DNA from: a virus
IMG/VR virus record: IMGVR_UViG_3300045968_000493
Coordinates: 1 to 28,902 of that record
DNA: 28,902 bases
Reading direction: 5' to 3' (one strand)
The notes under the pieces were generated by a model. The model made no database searches and was not told the DNA's origin. It was given only the letters and a program-made list of their open reading frames with translations. Position numbers and translations under genes: made by a program. Shown here piece by piece: positions 7,876-28,902 of this stretch; position 1 is the stretch's first letter; every line of letters begins with the position of its first letter.

Positions 7876-8235
7876 TCACGGCGTTGACGGCGCCCGCGCC
7901 CGCCGCTCGGCACCGCTCTTGCGTGCATGACACGACCGACACAGCGTCTGCAGGTTGCTCGGCTCGAAAGCGAGATCGGGCATCACGCGCACGCCGATGC
8001 GGTGATCAACCTCGGTAGCCGCTACCGGGCCACCGAAGCGGGCATGGATGTCGTAGGGGTCCATACACCACGGAAAGCGCTGCAGCATGGCGCGTCGCAG
8101 CCGTTGCCAGCGCGCCGTGGAGCGCGGATCAGGGCCATGGGCAGCCCGCCGGGCCGCATGGTACTGCGCATCGGCCGGCTGCCGCACACGGGGAGACCGC
8201 GACAGGGACTGATGACTCGCCGGACGCCAGGGCAT
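7876..8235 (-). CDS. HNH endonuclease next to terminase (packaging-associated)
   Basis: From ATG 8235 (behind GGGAGTCCCCT) it is 119 residues, starting MPWRPASHQS. The open frame extends 60 codons further upstream, but that part is Cys/Leu-rich, non-family-like and lacks a ribosome site. The HNH core is EVDHR (His78), Asn94 in SNLQTLC and His103 in CHARK. Cys99 and Cys102 form one half of a zinc site, while the usual first pair is reduced to Cys57 followed by MDP. In HK97-like cos phages an HNH protein beside terS-terL supports terminase cutting and packaging, and position supports that role here. Confidence 0.85.
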   Translation of the reverse strand: MPWRPASHQSLSRSPRVRQPADAQYHAARRAAHGPDPRSTARWQRLRRAMLQRFPWCMDPYDIHARFGGPVAATEVDHRIGVRVMPDLAFEPSNLQTLCRSCHARKSGAERRARAPSTP

Positions 8236-8398
8236 AGGGGACTCCCGAATGGTCAATGGATACCAGAAGCAGCAGAGAATGCAGCTATTAAAGAATGCTG
8301 AGGGGGAAGTTGTCAAGTTTGCGAGGCATTCTGCCGAAAGAGATTGTAGACTGTATAACAGTAGGACAGTACATGGTCTCTTACGACAAGGAGGTGTC
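8236..8398. promoter_or_regulatory. Divergent intergenic region with a candidate operator
   Basis: This region separates the leftward HNH-terminase unit from the rightward accessory operon and is more AT-rich than its flanks. At 8350-8362 lies ACTGT-ATA-ACAGT, a perfect 5-bp inverted repeat whose centre overlaps a possible -10 element (TATAAC, 8354-8359). No good -35 box is seen at 17 bp. The adjacent RHH protein could bind the repeat and autoregulate. Promoters for both directions should be here. Confidence 0.4.
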
Positions 8399-8581
8399 AT
8401 GCAGAAAGCGACCATTTACCTGGATGAGACCCTGTGGCGCACCTTTCGCAAGGTGTGCATTGATGAGGGCATCACGGCCAGTCAGCAGATGACGCGGTTG
8501 ATTGAACAGTATTTAACGCACCACCATCCCACGGCACCCGCTGCCGAACAGCAAAGGAGAACCCACGATGCGCGTACTTGA
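8399..8581 (+). CDS. Ribbon-helix-helix (CopG/Arc-like) DNA-binding protein
   Basis: This 60-residue protein starts at the ATG behind ACAAGGAGGTGTC. The frame is open upstream, but that start has no ribosome site. The N-terminus MQKATIYLDETLWRTF fits the RHH beta-strand and first helix, and CIDEGITASQQMTRLIEQYL fits the turn and second helix. The C-terminal 20 residues are polar and probably disordered. RHH proteins bind DNA as dimers through the beta-ribbon. As first gene of the accessory operon it probably regulates that operon, perhaps through the repeat at 8350-8362. It overlaps the next gene by 14 bp. Confidence 0.72.
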   Translation: MQKATIYLDETLWRTFRKVCIDEGITASQQMTRLIEQYLTHHHPTAPAAEQQRRTHDART

Positions 8582-21467: not shown

Positions 21468-22862
21468 TTACTGCACCGCTCCAGGCGCAAAGCCACACAC
21501 CTGCCACACCCGCACGGGTCCACGCGTGAGCCGCATGCAGATATCCCTGGAGCGCGAGGCCAGCTCTTCCGCGAACTGCCAGCCCCCGTCGCTTACCGAA
21601 TACTCCAGCACCAGGGGCGGCAGGTCCGGGGGCTGCGGCGGATCAGGCGGATCGGGTGGATCGGGGGCGTCAGGAATCGACGCCCCCAGGTTCCCTCCAT
21701 TGTGCCCTACACCAATTGCCGGCGAGCCCGCCTTCAAGCGGAAATCGCCCCCCGGGGCATCCACAAACACCGCCGCGGCCGTGGCCACAAACTGCGGCTG
21801 CAGGCCGCCCGCCGGCTGCACGTCAAACATCTGGCCGCTCATCTGCGGGGCCGATCCCGTCGAGTAGATGTAGCGGTTGTAACTGGTGCTGCTGACCACC
21901 TCCATCTGCATCAGGATATTGTCGCGGAGCACCGGGCCGCTACTCGACGCCGCGAGGATGCCATACGTATCGGAGAGCACCGGCTGATACTGATAGATCG
22001 TGTTATTGCGAATGATCCCGCCATTCCCGCCGCCAATCCAGATCCCCATGCCGACGCGCTCAATCACGTTATCGTGGGTCTCATTGTCATTCCCCTGCAG
22101 TTGGATGCCGTATTTCACGTCCGCAATGCGGTTCAAGCGCAGCCGTCCGCCGCTAATGCCGCCCTGCTCACAGGAGAGCTGAATGCCCCGATTGTTGGTG
22201 TGATGGATGGAGGAATATTCCACCACCTTGTTGGTCCCACAGAGGTACATGCCATGCGGTGGCGGCGTCATGGTCGAGGCCAGCCCGCAATGGTGGATGT
22301 GGAGATGCGAGAAGGTCACGGCGTCGCTGTCGGTTTGCGACGAGACGCAATGGTATTTGCTGCGGGTGATCTCGGCATGACTGTAGGTGATGTGGGACCC
22401 TTTGAGCCAGAGGGCTTGCTCATGCTGGTCCTGGCCATCGAGATGGAGGCCACGAAACGCGAGATACTGCGCCCCGGGCAGCGTCGTCACAATGCCGCCC
22501 CCGCCGGGATAGGTCACGGTGGGTTTCAGCCACACCGCGGCCCCGTCCGCGGCGCGAATGGTGGTGGGCTGACTGGCCGAGAGACCGTTGGGAATGGGGA
22601 TCACATTCGGCTGCACCGGGCGCACCACGTCCGCGCCCCCCGGTCCGGCCACGAGCAGTTCGAGATAGGTGCCAGTCGCCACCAGCAGCGTGTCCCCGCC
22701 GGCCAGGCAGGCGAGTCCCCCGTTGAGGGTCTGACGCGGCGTACTCGCACTGGTGGCCGTGGCGCAGGGGGTCGCGTCGCTGCCTGAGGGGGCGACGTGA
22801 TAGGTGGCGGCTCGCACGGGAGCACAGAGGGCAAGCAGGAGCAGGACGGAGGCCGTGCGCAT
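21468..22862 (-). CDS. Secreted right-handed parallel beta-helix protein
   Basis: A 464-residue protein with AAAGGAAA before its ATG. Residues 1-19 are a Sec signal peptide (MRTASVLLLLALCAPVRAA). The mature start YHVAPSGSDATPC and GGLACLAGGDTLLVATGTYL are the typical entry of pectate-lyase-like beta-helices (DUF1565-like). PbH1-type coils follow between about 125 and 335, with repeated 'N-x-I' or 'N-x-V' turns (EYSSIHHTNNRGIQL, NETHDNVIERVGMGIWIGGG, IIRNNTIYQYQPVLSD, VLRDNILMQMEV). The stretch PDPPDPPDPPQPPDLPP (about 402-418) is a rigid linker to a 45-residue C-terminal domain. Beta-helix proteins bind or cleave polysaccharides. A Sec signal is unusual for a tail spike, so an exported lysogen or lysis-phase product is more likely. 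Confidence 0.8.
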   Translation of the reverse strand: MRTASVLLLLALCAPVRAATYHVAPSGSDATPCATATSASTPRQTLNGGLACLAGGDTLLVATGTYLELLVAGPGGADVVRPVQPNVIPIPNGLSASQPTTIRAADGAAVWLKPTVTYPGGGGIVTTLPGAQYLAFRGLHLDGQDQHEQALWLKGSHITYSHAEITRSKYHCVSSQTDSDAVTFSHLHIHHCGLASTMTPPPHGMYLCGTNKVVEYSSIHHTNNRGIQLSCEQGGISGGRLRLNRIADVKYGIQLQGNDNETHDNVIERVGMGIWIGGGNGGIIRNNTIYQYQPVLSDTYGILAASSSGPVLRDNILMQMEVVSSTSYNRYIYSTGSAPQMSGQMFDVQPAGGLQPQFVATAAAVFVDAPGGDFRLKAGSPAIGVGHNGGNLGASIPDAPDPPDPPDPPQPPDLPPLVLEYSVSDGGWQFAEELASRSRDICMRLTRGPVRVWQVCGFAPGAVQ

Positions 22863-22874
22863 AGGGGGTTTCCT

Positions 22875-23138
22875 TTATTCCTCCCGTTTGGGCTGGCTGC
22901 GTGGCGTGTCGTAATAACAACGCCAGGCCAGGTCGGTCTGGGCTTGCTGCGCCGTCTGGAGTTGCCCCCAGAGTTGCTGGTTGATGGTGTGGACACGGGC
23001 AATCTCGGCGGTCATCCAGCGGATGGACAGGTACCACAGGACGAGCACCAGGGCGACCGTAATCGGCGAGGCCGATTGCAGCACGGTCCAGATAATGCCG
23101 ATCCATCCCCGCCCATTGGTCGCCGCCGGCAGCTCCAT
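22875..23138 (-). CDS. Single-pass membrane protein with coiled-coil tail (87 aa)
   Basis: The 87-residue product has one hydrophobic segment at about residues 24-42 (SPITVALVLVLWYLSIRW) followed by a Gln-rich helix (INQQLWGQLQTAQQAQTDLA) and a basic end. An N-in, C-out topology with a helical periplasmic part resembles an inner-membrane spanin subunit or a phage membrane accessory protein. No outer partner is seen beside it, so the spanin call is weak. The ATG is 3 bp after the upstream stop. The ribosome site is poor (GGCGG). Confidence 0.6.
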   Translation of the reverse strand: MELPAATNGRGWIGIIWTVLQSASPITVALVLVLWYLSIRWMTAEIARVHTINQQLWGQLQTAQQAQTDLAWRCYYDTPRSQPKREE

Positions 23139-23141
23139 GCG

Positions 23142-23303
23142 TCACGCCGCCTGCCGGTCCGTCGGAATGCCGTGCAGCGCGTGTGGGCAGCACTCCGTGC
23201 ACAGCGCACAGCCGACCGGCCACAGTGTCCCCGCCGGCAGCACCTCGCAGACGTCGGGGCCGGAGAGCCATTTCTTACAAAAAATGCAATATAACCTATT
23301 CAT
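23142..23303 (-). CDS. Small Cys-rich zinc-binding protein (53 aa)
   Basis: ATG at 23303 gives 53 residues: MNRLYCIFCKKWLSGPDVCE, then GCALCTECCPH. CxxC pairs are Cys6/Cys9 and Cys32/Cys35, with Cys19, Cys38, Cys39 and His41 as further ligands. This is a typical small zinc-finger arrangement. The ribosome site is weak. The start lies next to the promoter of the HNH gene on the other strand, so the HNH insertion may have replaced its own upstream sequence. The function is unknown. Confidence 0.55.
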   Translation of the reverse strand: MNRLYCIFCKKWLSGPDVCEVLPAGTLWPVGCALCTECCPHALHGIPTDRQAA

Positions 23304-23307
23304 TTAT

Positions 23308-23336
23308 ATGACCATGTAAGGTTTTTGTGGTACAAT
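23308..23336 (+). promoter_or_regulatory. Promoter of the free-standing HNH gene
   Basis: ATGACC (23308-23313), a 17-bp spacer and TACAAT (23331-23336), with TGG just before the -10 (extended -10 form). Transcription would begin near 23343, exactly at the first hairpin of the leader. The region is AT-rich against its surroundings. Confidence 0.5.
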
Positions 23337-23341
23337 TATTT

Positions 23342-23444
23342 GTGCCGTATACTTCCATGCGGCACGGATAGGGATTGCAACCCAACAAGCTCCTACCTGG
23401 GGAGTTTCCGTGCTACCACACAGGCCCAACCACAGGAGTTGGAC
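23342..23444 (+). ncRNA. Structured 5' leader of the HNH gene
   Basis: The leader has a first hairpin GTGCCG(23342-23347)...CGGCAC(23360-23365) and a second AGCTCC(23388-23393)...GGAGTT(23401-23406). The following GTGCTACCACAC and CAGGAGTTGGACATGCCGC closely match the leader of the truncated HNH gene at 26836-26908. It is an untranslated region, probably with a conserved RNA fold or recombination function. No known riboswitch class is recognised. Confidence 0.45.
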
Positions 23445-24239
23445 ATGCCGCAAGATCGTGAAAAGAAACGTCTCTATGATCAAATCTACCGCAAGAAAAA
23501 TGCTGAGAGAATACGCGCCATACAGCGGGTCTACCACGAGACACACCGGGAAGAACGCCGTGCCTATGTTGCGGCAAATCGCGAAAAACTTCGGGCGTAT
23601 TATGAGGCGTATACCAAAGAACATCGCGAAAAATTGTTAGCCTATTGGCGTGCGTATAACCAAGAACATCGCGAAAAAAGGCTTGAGCAAAACCGCCAGT
23701 ATCGTTTGGAACATCGTGAAGAACTGCGTGCCTATGAAAAAGAGTATGTCCAAAAATATGCCGAAGAATTTCAGGAATACTACAAGCACTATAATGCGGC
23801 ACGTAGAGCCGCACGCAAACAGGAATATCAGGACAATAAACCAAAGTATCGGGAGAAAAGCCGCAAGTATTATGCACAGAATCGCCACATGCTGCTTGCA
23901 AAGAGTAAAGCCTATTGGAAGGCCCATCCTGAACGCATGGCGGAGAAAAACGCTCAATATCGTGCAGCAAGGCTTTCTGCTCCAGTGAATGATTTAACAG
24001 AGTCGCAGTGGCAAGAGATCAAAGCCCATTATGGCCATCGGTGTGTCTATTGTGGCCGCAAGGTGCAGCGGCTCACAAAAGACCACATCACGCCACTGTC
24101 CAAACAAGGATCGCATACGGTGGCCAATATTGTTCCCGCCTGCCAATCCTGTAACAGTCGCAAATACAACAAGGAGCCGCTAGTTCCAGTGCAGCCGCTT
24201 TTACTCACCATCTCTCCAGGGAAGAAATCGCGCGGTTAA
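23445..24239 (+). CDS. Free-standing HNH (homing-type) endonuclease
   Basis: The 264-residue protein starts behind CAGGAGTTGGAC; the longer open frame has no ribosome site. Residues 1 to about 190 are a long, highly charged helical region built of degenerate repeats of roughly 11-13 residues (REKLRAYYEAYTKEHREK-like: 'EHREKLLAYWRAYNQ', 'EHREKRLEQNRQYRL', 'EHREELRAYEKEYV'). The C-terminal HNH domain has Cys200/Cys203, Asp213-His214 in KDHITPLSKQG, and Cys233/Cys236 followed by Asn in CQSCNSRK. It stands opposite to all neighbouring late genes, has its own promoter and is less GC-rich, all of which indicate a mobile homing endonuclease. Confidence 0.88.
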   Translation: MPQDREKKRLYDQIYRKKNAERIRAIQRVYHETHREERRAYVAANREKLRAYYEAYTKEHREKLLAYWRAYNQEHREKRLEQNRQYRLEHREELRAYEKEYVQKYAEEFQEYYKHYNAARRAARKQEYQDNKPKYREKSRKYYAQNRHMLLAKSKAYWKAHPERMAEKNAQYRAARLSAPVNDLTESQWQEIKAHYGHRCVYCGRKVQRLTKDHITPLSKQGSHTVANIVPACQSCNSRKYNKEPLVPVQPLLLTISPGKKSRG

Positions 24240-24263
24240 CACCAATACCGCATGGCGGGCTCC

Positions 24264-24559: not shown

Positions 24560-26677
24560 CTAGGCCCCCAGCCCGAGATTGATCAGCGCTGTGCGCAGAC
24601 TATTCGCCAGCGCCTGGGTGGTCGTGGCATCCGTCGCCGCGGCCGCAAGCGTCTGGCGGACGACGGCCGGCTGCCCAAAAAACCCCAGCATGGGGGCTGT
24701 GCCTGAGGTTTCGATGCGCACGCCTTCCCGTGCGGCGGTCGCATCGTACACCGAGAGCGTCACCCGTGCCGTGCGGGTCGCGTCCGTGGACACGACGAAC
24801 GACGAGGCGATGAGGGCTTGCGCCCGCTCTTGCACCGAGGACTGCCCTACCGTGAGCAGCGAGCCGTTGACGGTCAGCGTTCTGTATGAAGCGCCACTGC
24901 CCAGCGTGGCCGTGAGCGTCGTGCCAATGCCGCTGAGGTCGCCCAGCACATGACTGGTGCCATCTTCCGTGCGCACGTGCAGACTGCCCTTGCCGGCGGT
25001 GGCCCCGCGATCGGCCGCATAGAGCAGCACCGTATCGGCCACACTACTCGTCGGGGCGGTGGCGGGGCCGAGCCCCAGCAGGTTGGCGCCGCCCGAGGCC
25101 AGGAGGTCGCTGTTGACGCTGACGTTGCCGACGGGATCGACGGCGAGGGCGCCCGGGCCGGTGGCCGCCGGCAGCGTCCCGGCGTTTGCCGTGCGGATCA
25201 TCAGGCGGCCGCTATTGTCGGCCCCCTGGCGCTTCATCCCGACCTGGCCCAGCAAGTTTTCGACGGCCGCGGTATCTTCAATGGCAAAATTGAGTCCCAC
25301 CCCAAAATGGTCGATCATGTCGCCGCTGCTGCGCCGCAGCAGGGTCTGCGCCGTGCCCAGATTGGACGTGCTCGTGGTCATCGCCAGGAGTTTGGTCGTG
25401 GCGAGATTGACGGCGCTCTGCACCGTCAACATGACGTCCGTCGGGGCCGCCGCCGCCCCCACGCTGAGCGTGCCGCTACTGCTGGTGAGCACGCCGGGCG
25501 CCGTCTCCAGCGCCGTGCCAGAGGCGGCGTACCGCGCCAGGCTGAGGGGCGTGCCACTCAGGGGGGCGCCAGGGAGGGTGTTGATCTTGGCTTGCAGCGC
25601 CGCGGGCGTGACAAAGCGCGTGGTATCGACGCCATCAATGCTTTCCTGCGTGGTGGCCCGCTCCGAGAGCCCGACGACGCTTTCGGTGGCCAGGGGGATG
25701 GCGTTGATCTTGGCTTGCACGGTGAGCGGCGTCATGATCTTGGTATTGTCAGTGCCCGTCGCGCCCTCGGTCGTGGTGGCAAGCGGCGCGATCCCGGCCA
25801 CGCTGGTCGTGGCCTGCACGGGCAGCGGGGGCAGCGTGGCCCATTTGGCCTGCAGACTGACGGGGGTAATGGCGGTGGTGTCGTCGAGCCCGGCGATGGC
25901 GAGCGCATTGTCGGCCAGCACGGTAATCCCCGCCTGCGTCGTCGTCGCCCGGGGCAGGCTGGTCGAGAGACTGAACACCACGGTGATCGGCTGGTTGAGG
26001 GCAAAGGCCACGCCGCTGTTCGCCACCCAGACGACCGGGAACGACCACCACACGCCCTGATCGCTCCCAGCGGCGGTCAGCCGATAGCGCACGGTATTCG
26101 CACTGGTCGTCTGGTCTTGCAGGTACAGTTCGTCCTGCGAGGCCAGCGAGCGGTACAGCGTTTCCCGGTCCACGCCATCACTGCCGACGATATGCGCCCG
26201 GAGTTCGGTGGCCGCCGTGACCCCTGCAGTATTGATGGCCAGACGGCCACTGGCTGGGGCGCCCGATGTCGCCGTGTCCCAATTCCAGGTGCCGCTGGCG
26301 CTGGCCACGACCAGCCCACTGCCTCCGGCCCCGGCCCCGGCGACGACGTAGACCTCCGTGCTATCGGAGTAGTACAGCGCTCGCGTGCCCTGAGGCAGCG
26401 TCACGCCCGCCCCGCTGGAGGTTTTGAAGGTCACATCGAAGGCCCCGGTGGTCTGGTTGTCGAGAATATAGACCCGCGCCCGCGACGGCGCGGTGACGAT
26501 ACAGGGCGCCGTCAACACGCCGGTAAAGCGCAACACCGCGTAGAGGCTCAAGTCCTCGGTGTCACTGGCGAGGTCGAGCGTGCTGAGTCCGCCCAGGGGA
26601 ATGGCCAGGTAGCCCGAAATGCCCCGAGACAGGTTATTGATCGCATCGTTAAATATAGTCTCTTTTGCCGAGTGATC
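24560..26677 (-). CDS. Tail fibre protein, 5' end disrupted
   Basis: The frame is open over 705 codons, from a TAG at 26680-26678 to the stop at 24560. The first family-like sequence is AKETIFNDAINNLSRG at once after that TAG, and LRFTGVLTAPCIVTAP, GAFDVTFKTSSGAGVTLPQG then follow (the usual beta-rich fibre repeat). Later parts contain repeats of about 35-45 residues (TTTQAGITVLADNALAIAGL, TTSVAGIAPLATTTEGATGT, 'TPLTVQAKINAIPLATESVV', 'TPAALQAKINTLPGAPLSGT'), the pyocin-knob-like pattern. No ATG, GTG or TTG with a ribosome site exists before TTG 26551, which cuts into the fold. The true start seems to be at 27082, separated by HNH-type DNA. Confidence 0.72.
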   Translation of the reverse strand, partial: DHSAKETIFNDAINNLSRGISGYLAIPLGGLSTLDLASDTEDLSLYAVLRFTGVLTAPCIVTAPSRARVYILDNQTTGAFDVTFKTSSGAGVTLPQGTRALYYSDSTEVYVVAGAGAGGSGLVVASASGTWNWDTATSGAPASGRLAINTAGVTAATELRAHIVGSDGVDRETLYRSLASQDELYLQDQTTSANTVRYRLTAAGSDQGVWWSFPVVWVANSGVAFALNQPITVVFSLSTSLPRATTTQAGITVLADNALAIAGLDDTTAITPVSLQAKWATLPPLPVQATTSVAGIAPLATTTEGATGTDNTKIMTPLTVQAKINAIPLATESVVGLSERATTQESIDGVDTTRFVTPAALQAKINTLPGAPLSGTPLSLARYAASGTALETAPGVLTSSSGTLSVGAAAAPTDVMLTVQSAVNLATTKLLAMTTSTSNLGTAQTLLRRSSGDMIDHFGVGLNFAIEDTAAVENLLGQVGMKRQGADNSGRLMIRTANAGTLPAATGPGALAVDPVGNVSVNSDLLASGGANLLGLGPATAPTSSVADTVLLYAADRGATAGKGSLHVRTEDGTSHVLGDLSGIGTTLTATLGSGASYRTLTVNGSLLTVGQSSVQERAQALIASSFVVSTDATRTARVTLSVYDATAAREGVRIETSGTAPMLGFFGQPAVVRQTLAAAATDATTTQALANSLRTALINLGLGA

Positions 26678-26739
26678 CTATATCCATACTTTCTATACTT
26701 CTAAATTCTGAAACTGGCACCCGCAATCACCACCCTTCG

Positions 26740-26769
26740 ATAAAAGACTGTCTTCTGAGAGTCTTTTAT
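26740..26769. terminator. Bidirectional intrinsic terminator-like hairpin
   Basis: ATAAAAGACT (26740-26749), a 10-nt loop and AGTCTTTTAT (26760-26769) form a perfect 10-bp stem. The stem carries A-runs and T-runs on both sides, so an RNA of either strand ends with a U-rich arm. On the minus strand it would stop transcription coming from the tail-tip gene before it reaches the tail fibre frame. On the plus strand it precedes the truncated HNH gene. The rest of 26678-26735 is AT-rich with nothing else recognised. Confidence 0.5.
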
Positions 26770-26793
26770 AGTTATACTGTTATAGTTATACTG
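26766..26793. repeat. Two exact 14-bp tandem repeats (promoter-like)
   Basis: TTATAGTTATACTG occurs twice without gap, followed by TT. Each copy carries a TATACT hexamer that fits a -10 element, so the pair may form tandem start sites for the plus-strand HNH gene 110 bp downstream. No -35 box is clear. The repeats look like replication slippage in an AT-rich element. Confidence 0.6.
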
Positions 26794-26835
26794 TTCATTC
26801 GTGTAGCTAGTGATTTCCTGATCAGAAGTCATGAA

Positions 26836-26903
26836 AGCCTTGCTTCCTGACAAGGTTGCTACACACACACTCAGGAACCTTTCTCAACATCAGGAGGTTG
26901 AGC
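26836..26903 (+). ncRNA. Structured leader of the truncated HNH gene
   Basis: AGCCTTG-CTTCCTGA-CAAGGTT (26836-26857) is a 7-bp stem with one G-U pair, followed by GCTACACACACAC and a CAGGAGGTTGAG ribosome site before ATGCCGC. Stem, GCTAC element and start context correspond to the leader at 23388-23449, although the stem bases differ. Differences that keep pairing argue for selected RNA structure. Confidence 0.45.
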
Positions 26904-27086
26904 ATGCCGCGCCCACGTTTGCTTGCTGATCGCTTTTGGAGCCATGTCACACATCGCGATGATCCCCAGGCTTGTTGGCTCTGGACAGGAGCCCTCGACT
27001 CAAAGACAGGCTACGGACAATTTGTCCGCCAGATGCGACCGATCAAATTTGTCTCATTGTCCACCGTAGCACGTGGAAACATCTAG
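26904..27086 (+). pseudogene. Truncated HNH endonuclease (N-terminal part only)
   Basis: ATG at 26904 follows CAGGAGGTTGAG. The 60-residue frame begins with a typical HNH N-terminal module (RLLADRFWSHVTHRDD and ACWLWTGALDSKTGYGQF), which in full proteins is followed by 'AHRv..el' and then by the catalytic HNH residues. Here the homology ends near residue 44, and the last 16 residues are antisense to the start of the tail-fibre gene. All catalytic residues are missing, so it cannot be an active nuclease. It is the residue of a mobile HNH gene. Confidence 0.72.
27011..27082 (-). pseudogene. Detached 5' end of the tail fibre gene
   Basis: ATG at 27082 lies 5 bp after the tail-tip stop, with GAAGGGA upstream, in keeping with the tight packing of this operon. 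It codes for MFPRATVDNETNL, a phage tail-protein-like beginning, then changes to IGRIWRTNCP and a stop at 27013-27011, within sequence antisense to the truncated HNH gene. It is probably the original first exon-like piece of the fibre gene. The fibre body resumes near 26677. Confidence 0.5.
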
Positions 27087-27087
27087 A

Positions 27088-28902
27088 CTAAGTCCCTTCT
27101 CCGGCTTGAGAGACGAGGAGCAGCGGCGCACTCGTCCCATCCAGACCGACCTGCACGCAGTCCCAGTACAGCGTCGTCTGCACGCTCCCAAAATCGCTCT
27201 GCTGCTGGGCGGCGCTATACATGAACGTCGCCGGGGTCTGGTACGCCAGCCCCTGCCCCAGTGCCACCTGATGCACCACCTGCGCCCGCGTGGCGTCCTG
27301 GTAGATCGTCAGCAGGTAATGGACAAAATCCGCGTCGGGCGTGGCCTCTTCTCCGTCCACCCACTCGCCCCAGAAGCGTGCGCGCCCGCGCCAACTCAGG
27401 CGCCAGGTCCCATCACTGAGCTGCACGCCCCGCGCACTGCCCACCGTCCACGGCACCAGATTCAGGGACGGCGCGGCATACGGCGCCGGCGCCACCTGCG
27501 TCACGTCCTCCCCGATGGTGGGGCTTTTCCAGTTGCGCGTGCGGCTGCGCTCCTGCGCCAGCATGTCGCGGGTAAACACCCCCGTGCCGATCAGCAGGCA
27601 GCGCTCCCCGCTCTGATGCGTGCCGACCTGCACCTCGGTGCCGCGGCGCCCCCGGCGCAACTGGCGCAGGCGATACGTGTCACCGCCCAGATCCTCGGCA
27701 ATGCGAAAATTGAGCAGTTCCGTGCCCAGGAGCAGCGCGTTAAAGCCCATCTGCAACTCGCCCGGCGTGATACTGGTCAGGATGCCGCCGCTCACCGTCA
27801 CGTCCACCGTACTCACGAAGTCGGTGGTCTGCGCCGGCGCGGCCGGAAGCGCCGTGAGGGCCGTGCCCATACAGGGCAGCGGCGCGCCCTGCGTATCGAG
27901 GAGATAGTCCTCATCCACCGGGTCCTGCGAGCGGTAGAGCTGCGCTCCCGGCCACGGGTCGGTCGCCTCACGCTGCCCACTCACCGGCGTACTGCGATAG
28001 GAGGCGTGATAGCGCGTCGTGATGTCCTCGGCATACAGGGCCGGGAAGTCATGAAAGGCGGTCTGCGTCTGCGGCAGCACGCCGGTCCCGGCGGTGTCAT
28101 AGATGTCGGGGCGATATTCGGCCCCGGCCAGCGTCAGGGTGGTCGCCGTCTCGTCCATGGCGACGTGATCGAGCAGGACGGTCACCATGGCCGCGCCCAG
28201 GACCCCGATGCCATAGAGATCGCCCGGCTCGGGCACGGCGCCCAGTGCCGGGGCAATGGCGATGGTCACCTGCGCCCGCGTCGCGGTGGCGATAAAGGTG
28301 CGCACCAGCGGGAGATTCAGGCGCTGGATATTGACCAGGACCTCATAGGTGGTCCCCGCGACCAGGGGCACGGCCTGGTCCAAGACCAGCAGGAGCGCGG
28401 TCGATCCGGCCTGGAGGTAGCCACTATAGCCGTGCCGCCGTGCTGGCGTGTGGTAGCCCAGGCGCACCACATCAAAGGGCTCCGAGGGCAAGGCGGCCAG
28501 GGGACTCTTCCAGCTATAGCGCCGGAGGGCCAGGCGGGTCTTTTTGAGGCCATAGGCCAGGACGCGAATGGCCTGGCTCTCCCGCGTCACGGTTTTGAGC
28601 GAGGTGGTCTGCTCGTTGAGGAGTTCACTGCCGATATCGCTGGCCACGACCTCGATCAAGGCGAGCCGGTAATTCTGCGCCGCGTCAGCAAACTCCCCCC
28701 GGACCGTATTGGGTGGCGGGCCGGTGGCGCCAATGGTGCTGGTCTGCGACTCGGCCACCAGATTGCCCGGCCCGAGGTAGGCCGTGACCGGACTGCGGGG
28801 ACGGTCAATGACGTATTTGAGCAGGCCCCGGGAGGGATAGAGCGCCGCATTGCCCTCGGTGAGCAGGTCTTTCACCCAGTCCCAGGCCGGACGCCGCTGA
28901 TT
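27088..28902 (-). CDS. Tail-tip (host specificity, gpJ/GTA-like) protein, 5' part outside window
   Basis: The frame is open to the right edge for 604 residues, so the N-terminus is missing. The first visible residues NQRRPAWDWVKDLLTEG match the 'NPAW..yDlLt' part of gpJ and GTA-type tail-tip proteins. Later come VVRLGYHTPARRHGYSGYLQ, PAPAQTTDFVSTVDVTVSGG and the hallmark ELLNFRIAEDLGGDTYRLRQ then LRRGRRGTE (about 200 residues before the end), typical of these baseplate hub proteins. The product forms the tail tip and contacts the host surface or carries fibres. It is the first gene of the tail-fibre unit visible here. Confidence 0.85.
   Translation of the reverse strand, partial: NQRRPAWDWVKDLLTEGNAALYPSRGLLKYVIDRPRSPVTAYLGPGNLVAESQTSTIGATGPPPNTVRGEFADAAQNYRLALIEVVASDIGSELLNEQTTSLKTVTRESQAIRVLAYGLKKTRLALRRYSWKSPLAALPSEPFDVVRLGYHTPARRHGYSGYLQAGSTALLLVLDQAVPLVAGTTYEVLVNIQRLNLPLVRTFIATATRAQVTIAIAPALGAVPEPGDLYGIGVLGAAMVTVLLDHVAMDETATTLTLAGAEYRPDIYDTAGTGVLPQTQTAFHDFPALYAEDITTRYHASYRSTPVSGQREATDPWPGAQLYRSQDPVDEDYLLDTQGAPLPCMGTALTALPAAPAQTTDFVSTVDVTVSGGILTSITPGELQMGFNALLLGTELLNFRIAEDLGGDTYRLRQLRRGRRGTEVQVGTHQSGERCLLIGTGVFTRDMLAQERSRTRNWKSPTIGEDVTQVAPAPYAAPSLNLVPWTVGSARGVQLSDGTWRLSWRGRARFWGEWVDGEEATPDADFVHYLLTIYQDATRAQVVHQVALGQGLAYQTPATFMYSAAQQQSDFGSVQTTLYWDCVQVGLDGTSAPLLLVSQAGEGT

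Follow-up and report, generated by a model that had tools for sequence, protein, structure and literature searches.

A decayed HNH homing-endonuclease insertion as the probable cause of a missing tail-fibre gene start in an uncultured phage

Introduction

Essential phage genes are known to take up free-standing homing endonucleases nearby or inside them, and are at times split as a result (PMC2988022, PMC10448857). In the T-even type of free-standing HNH/mob insertion, such as mobE in nrdA of phage Aeh1, an HNH gene likewise interrupts the coding region of a phage gene, having inserted at or within it (PMC2988022). The split Aeh1 gene still gives a functional two-part enzyme, whereas at the locus described here the HNH gene lies in the opposite orientation and is truncated, and the start of the adjoining tail-fibre gene is missing. 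The HNH homing-endonuclease introns of the ICP1 tape-measure gene also place HNH genes in phage tail-gene territory; those introns are spliced (PMC10448857), whereas our locus has neither an intron signature nor a recognisable first exon. For the fibre gene itself, the nearest described counterparts are those of Caulobacter phages CcrSC and C1, Erythrobacter phage XM05 and Citromicrobium phage RXM, which have the same gene order and the same N-terminal fibre family from a QKE motif onward. Their fibres carry a start of 16-19 residues (TPILxLxQVAPNQN) that our fibre lacks.

Here, we analyzed a complete IMG/VR viral record of 28,902 bases (IMGVR_UViG_3300045968_000493), referred to in its entirety as the window, together with an overlapping contig and a sister phage.

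Results and Discussion

Organization of the tail-tip/fibre junction

The disrupted region lies between a tail-tip gene and a fibre frame (Table 1). The tail-tip gene matched Rcc01698_C (PF23666, E 2e-21), Phage-tail_3 (PF13550, E 2e-12) and PHROG 4271 (E 5e-45), and our ORF check agreed with the first-pass annotation in placing its stop at 27088. It leaves the window, and its 1136-codon frame is complete in the overlapping contig (G001, IMGVR_UViG_3300045977_000530). The fibre frame, which matched three tail-fibre PHROGs, is open from 26677 to 24560 (705 codons) with no ATG, GTG or TTG ahead of the TTG at 26551. The first-pass annotation had the fibre resume at about 26677 without a usable start; the open frame and the missing start stand, while the ORF from 26677 begins with DHS and AKETIF begins at 26668.

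Table 1. Features of the tail-tip/fibre junction, in window coordinates.
Feature	Position	Strand	Evidence or content
Tail-tip gene, C-terminal part (GTA ORF15-like / Rcc01698_C)	27088..28902	-	PF23666, PF13550, PHROG 4271
Spacer, tail-tip stop to HNH fragment, 40 nt	27048..27087	.	holds ATG 27082 (MFPRATVDNETN...)
HNH endonuclease gene, first 48 codons	26904..27047	+	PHROG 826 E 8.8e-9; HNH profile ends at residue 48
Leader of HNH fragment, 41% GC	26669..26903	+	holds tandem repeat, inverted repeat, HNH ribosome-binding site
Tandem repeat, 14-nt x2	26763-26790		repeat search
Inverted repeat, 13-bp	26740-26769		repeat search
Fibre gene remnant without start codon	24560..26668	-	six-frame profile search E 1.3e-19; PHROG 910, 972, 8443
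First standard start codon of fibre frame, TTG	26549..26551	-	would yield 663-aa protein without the N-terminal segment

The HNH fragment

A plus-strand HNH N-terminal fragment, its leader and a tandem repeat had all been recognized at first pass; the fragment was recovered by the PHROG search and the tandem repeat by the repeat search. The HNH ORF starts at ATG 26904, preceded by a strong Shine-Dalgarno sequence (-11.0 kcal/mol), and its N-terminal region, RFW...CWLWTGALD..GYG, is evident both from the match to PHROG 826 and from alignment with relatives; Pfam returned no match for the fragment. A profile built in this analysis from HNH relatives matched residues 6-48, that is, up to 27047. 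The relatives go on with AHR and then the H-N-H core (AHR...CHHCDN...HL), and the fragment ends before both. The catalytic core (AHR...CH.CDN...N..HL) is thus absent from the fragment, and the missing half was found nowhere in the window or the overlapping contig, either by six-frame profile search or by tblastn of HNH relatives. Because this core is absent, the fragment is, as judged from its sequence, a remnant that would not encode a working free-standing phage HNH homing endonuclease.

Past residue 48, the frame continues to a stop at 27084-27086; the 12 codons after that residue, considered as HNH-derived, gave no gain compared to shuffled or random sequence. The hairpin in the leader had been described as terminator-like, a description that did not hold, as it received no terminator score, the sole terminator-like match lay elsewhere and the count of such matches was no higher than in shuffles. 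Within viral contigs, the 26-nt hairpin sequence occurred in the same phage only.

Loss of the fibre start

Intact members of the fibre family (12 relatives) have 16-19 residues upstream of the QKE motif, with the start consensus M..TPILxLxQVAPNQNQKExTINDA. In the window, family homology starts exactly at this conserved motif (AKE here, at 26668), which is profile position 18, and the QKExxxNDA motif and the following beta domain are present in the profile match from AKE. The N-terminal start of the TPILxLxQVAPNQN type is missing, the left flank scoring no better than random, and a six-frame profile search found it nowhere in the window or the overlapping contig. Pfam did not recognize the fibre N-terminal segment. 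Named phage fibres also belong to the family, as do two prophage fibres that came from scanning 399 genomes within one phylum; one of the two entered the alignment.

Among the relatives found that include a tail region, the closest was contig G003 (IMGVR_UViG_3300045946_000253), a sister phage with an 89% identical terminase and head genes that match those of the window along their length. Its fibre start is complete (MTVATDTIKGIYLVEGQAQKE), the fibre beginning MTVATDTIKGIYLVEGQAQKEARSNEWF. In CcrSC, C1, XM05, RXM, Mwe-JY26, Bajun, MD18 and RcXuper, the fibre gene comes after a tail-region gene, annotated as a GTA host specificity protein in CcrSC and C1, and 46-79 nt separate the two genes.

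These observations are probably best explained by a decayed free-standing HNH homing-endonuclease insertion at the tail-tip/fibre junction, in the course of which the fibre start was lost. The HNH match runs to 27047 and that of the fibre begins at 26668, and the segment is AT-rich, its GC content being 41% for the leader and 56% for the HNH part versus 67-68% for the flanking genes. We infer that a free-standing HNH gene would have entered the junction in opposite orientation and then decayed, its catalytic part being lost while the leader and the first 48 codons remained. The fibre would be a 5′-truncated gene, because its start codon, its ribosome-binding site and its first ~17 codons are also gone, and it would now be either dead or weakly made from an internal start such as the TTG at 26551. 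The first-pass annotation had offered insertion and decay of a homing gene with loss of fibre N-terminal coding sequence as one of its readings, and the opposite-strand HNH fragment at the 5′ end of the fibre and the missing N-terminal coding both favour it. Low GC reaches into the first fibre codons (44% at 26621-26668), which, speculatively, would agree with a tract having been imported from a more AT-rich donor.

Neither an empty-site allele nor an HNH donor was recovered by protein scans of viral contigs, by a DNA search of phages and plasmids or by a search with the hairpin pattern; these yielded nothing beyond the same phage and matches to unrelated domains, and the event is therefore reconstructed from relatives. 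When genome contigs were scanned for the terminase, a single distant match appeared, which was not the host.

The reading frame in the spacer

Counting against truncation is the ATG at 27082, 5 nt past the tail-tip stop as first annotated, which is in the same frame as the fibre, has a moderate Shine-Dalgarno sequence (-6.4 kcal/mol, approximately the best 10% of background) and reads MFPRATVDNETNLIGRIWRTNCP before a stop. Alternatively, then, the HNH gene inserted within the fibre ORF after about codon 13, so that MFPRATVDNETNL would be the true, divergent N-terminus and the gene would have suffered an interruption of ~375 nt and not a 5′-truncation. Its 13 codons are near the 16-19 expected, the insert length would be a multiple of 3, and both flanks are AT-rich (44-45% GC, the spacer having 45%).

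To evaluate this, we joined MFPRATVDNETNL (13 residues) to AKETIF and measured the gain in family-profile score. The profile matched residues 14-122 of the joined peptide (E 6.8e-21), and the addition contributed 0.6 bits (69.9 vs 69.3), a gain equalled or beaten by 71% of shuffled 13-residue starts and 52% of random ones. The control consisted of 12 true members, each left out of the profile along with its near relatives; their own starts gained about 4-29 bits, were equalled by at most 3% of shuffles, and passed in all 12 cases, including that of the distant G003 (3.9 bits). The "tail-protein-like start" reported at first pass hence finds no support from the fibre-family profile, and the proposal that the gene was merely split is likewise not supported. 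Nor is the ATG especially well placed, given that in a 40-nt spacer an ATG in this frame, with no stop before the HNH end, arises by chance with P about 0.16. We consider a divergent N-terminus here unlikely. Alignment with related fibre genes, one of the checks that the first-pass annotation proposed, bears out the loss of N-terminal coding (16-19 residues) but not the 27082 ORF as the N-terminus.

The spacer translation was recognized by neither the HNH profile nor the fibre profile. The 40 nt are most likely leftover intergenic DNA, or possibly a divergent fibre start; on the simplest reading, they would be leftover spacer and the fibre's own start would have been lost. More generally, an upstream in-frame ATG does not amount to evidence that a gene is split, and a family profile with held-out controls can tell a true N-terminus from chance.

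Expression from an internal start

A shortened fibre, expressed from the TTG at 26551 and functional, would be compatible with the 705 open codons, with the location of this codon roughly where the N-terminal segment gives way to the next domain, and with a phage that otherwise seems intact. However, the ribosome-binding site there is very weak (anti-Shine-Dalgarno energy of just -1.8 kcal/mol), nearby alternative starts are also weak, and the lost residues are conserved among relatives, making such a product improbable. The phage seems to replicate, as its contigs overlap in two places as in a circular map and its head genes match those of the sister phage, and a dead fibre is for this reason slightly surprising. 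If the phage lives without the fibre start, an N-terminus conserved in relatives may be dispensable here.

Intron, bypass or recombination switch

The first-pass annotation also considered that the segment is removed or bypassed, whether as an intron or through a recombination switch. A self-splicing intron or translational bypass would still allow an intact fibre to be made; the flanking frames agree, phage introns frequently contain HNH genes, and in ICP1 the tape-measure gene is split by introns of this kind (PMC10448857). However, the HNH ORF is antisense to the host gene as well as truncated. Rfam gave no family match at gathering score across the whole window, and at E 10 over 26500-27200 on both strands it gave just two chance matches, to human-type RNA families. 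Both strands were folded, and the minus strand did no better than shuffles (z -0.13), so that neither analysis detected a conserved group I or group II intron core on the host-gene strand. For a bypass, the 27082 ORF ends CCG-TAG and no CCG landing codon occurs in 26700-26640, near the point of resumption; we know of no translational bypass of such length. Inverted crossover repeats flanking the segment were likewise absent; apart from the local hairpin, the search returned a single GC-rich pair of 16 nt, distant and attributable to chance. Removal or bypass is not supported, and a self-splicing intron or bypass is very improbable. Still harder to credit is that 26669-27047 forms an unrecognised intron, carrying the HNH fragment antisense, whose removal would give a fibre with a divergent N-terminus.

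Reality of the junctions

Although the contig is metagenomic and the junctions are abrupt at both ends, an assembly chimera that wrongly joined the HNH fragment to the fibre is extremely unlikely, as the overlapping contig, a separate IMG record, contains the same junctions with 100% identity across 7.8 kb. The window and this contig share two overlap blocks with one mismatch per block, both away from the HNH segment, an arrangement consistent with a circularly permuted genome or circular map of ~41 kb. The disruption at the tail-tip/fibre boundary is real.

The decayed insertion is an ordinary one with a real effect on one gene, and looks like a common scar of mobile-DNA activity, neither an intron nor a host-range switch. 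It would add a further example of homing-endonuclease scars at phage tail module boundaries.

Neighbouring genes

The sister phage has an extra 221-aa gene between tail tip and fibre (26759-27424 of its contig) and its tail tip is just ~29% identical to that of the window; because of these differences, an exchange of tail-tip and fibre modules has probably taken place between the two phages.

A second opposite-strand HNH gene was present at 23439-24239 (+), within 23139-24263, with a complete HNH domain (PF01844, E 1.8e-13). It sits between an 85-aa gene and a small minus-strand gene (22875-23138), and because the corresponding two genes adjoin in the sister phage it resembles another HNH insertion, intact and intergenic, within the same series of tail/lysis genes. 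Immediately upstream of the terminase genes, an HNH-like gene (7876-8415, -) has 58% identity to its counterpart in the sister phage and is typical of packaging-module HNH proteins. Finally, a gene in the tail/lysis region (21468-22862, -) encodes a right-handed beta-helix protein with a signal-peptide-like start, possibly a tail spike or polysaccharide lyase.
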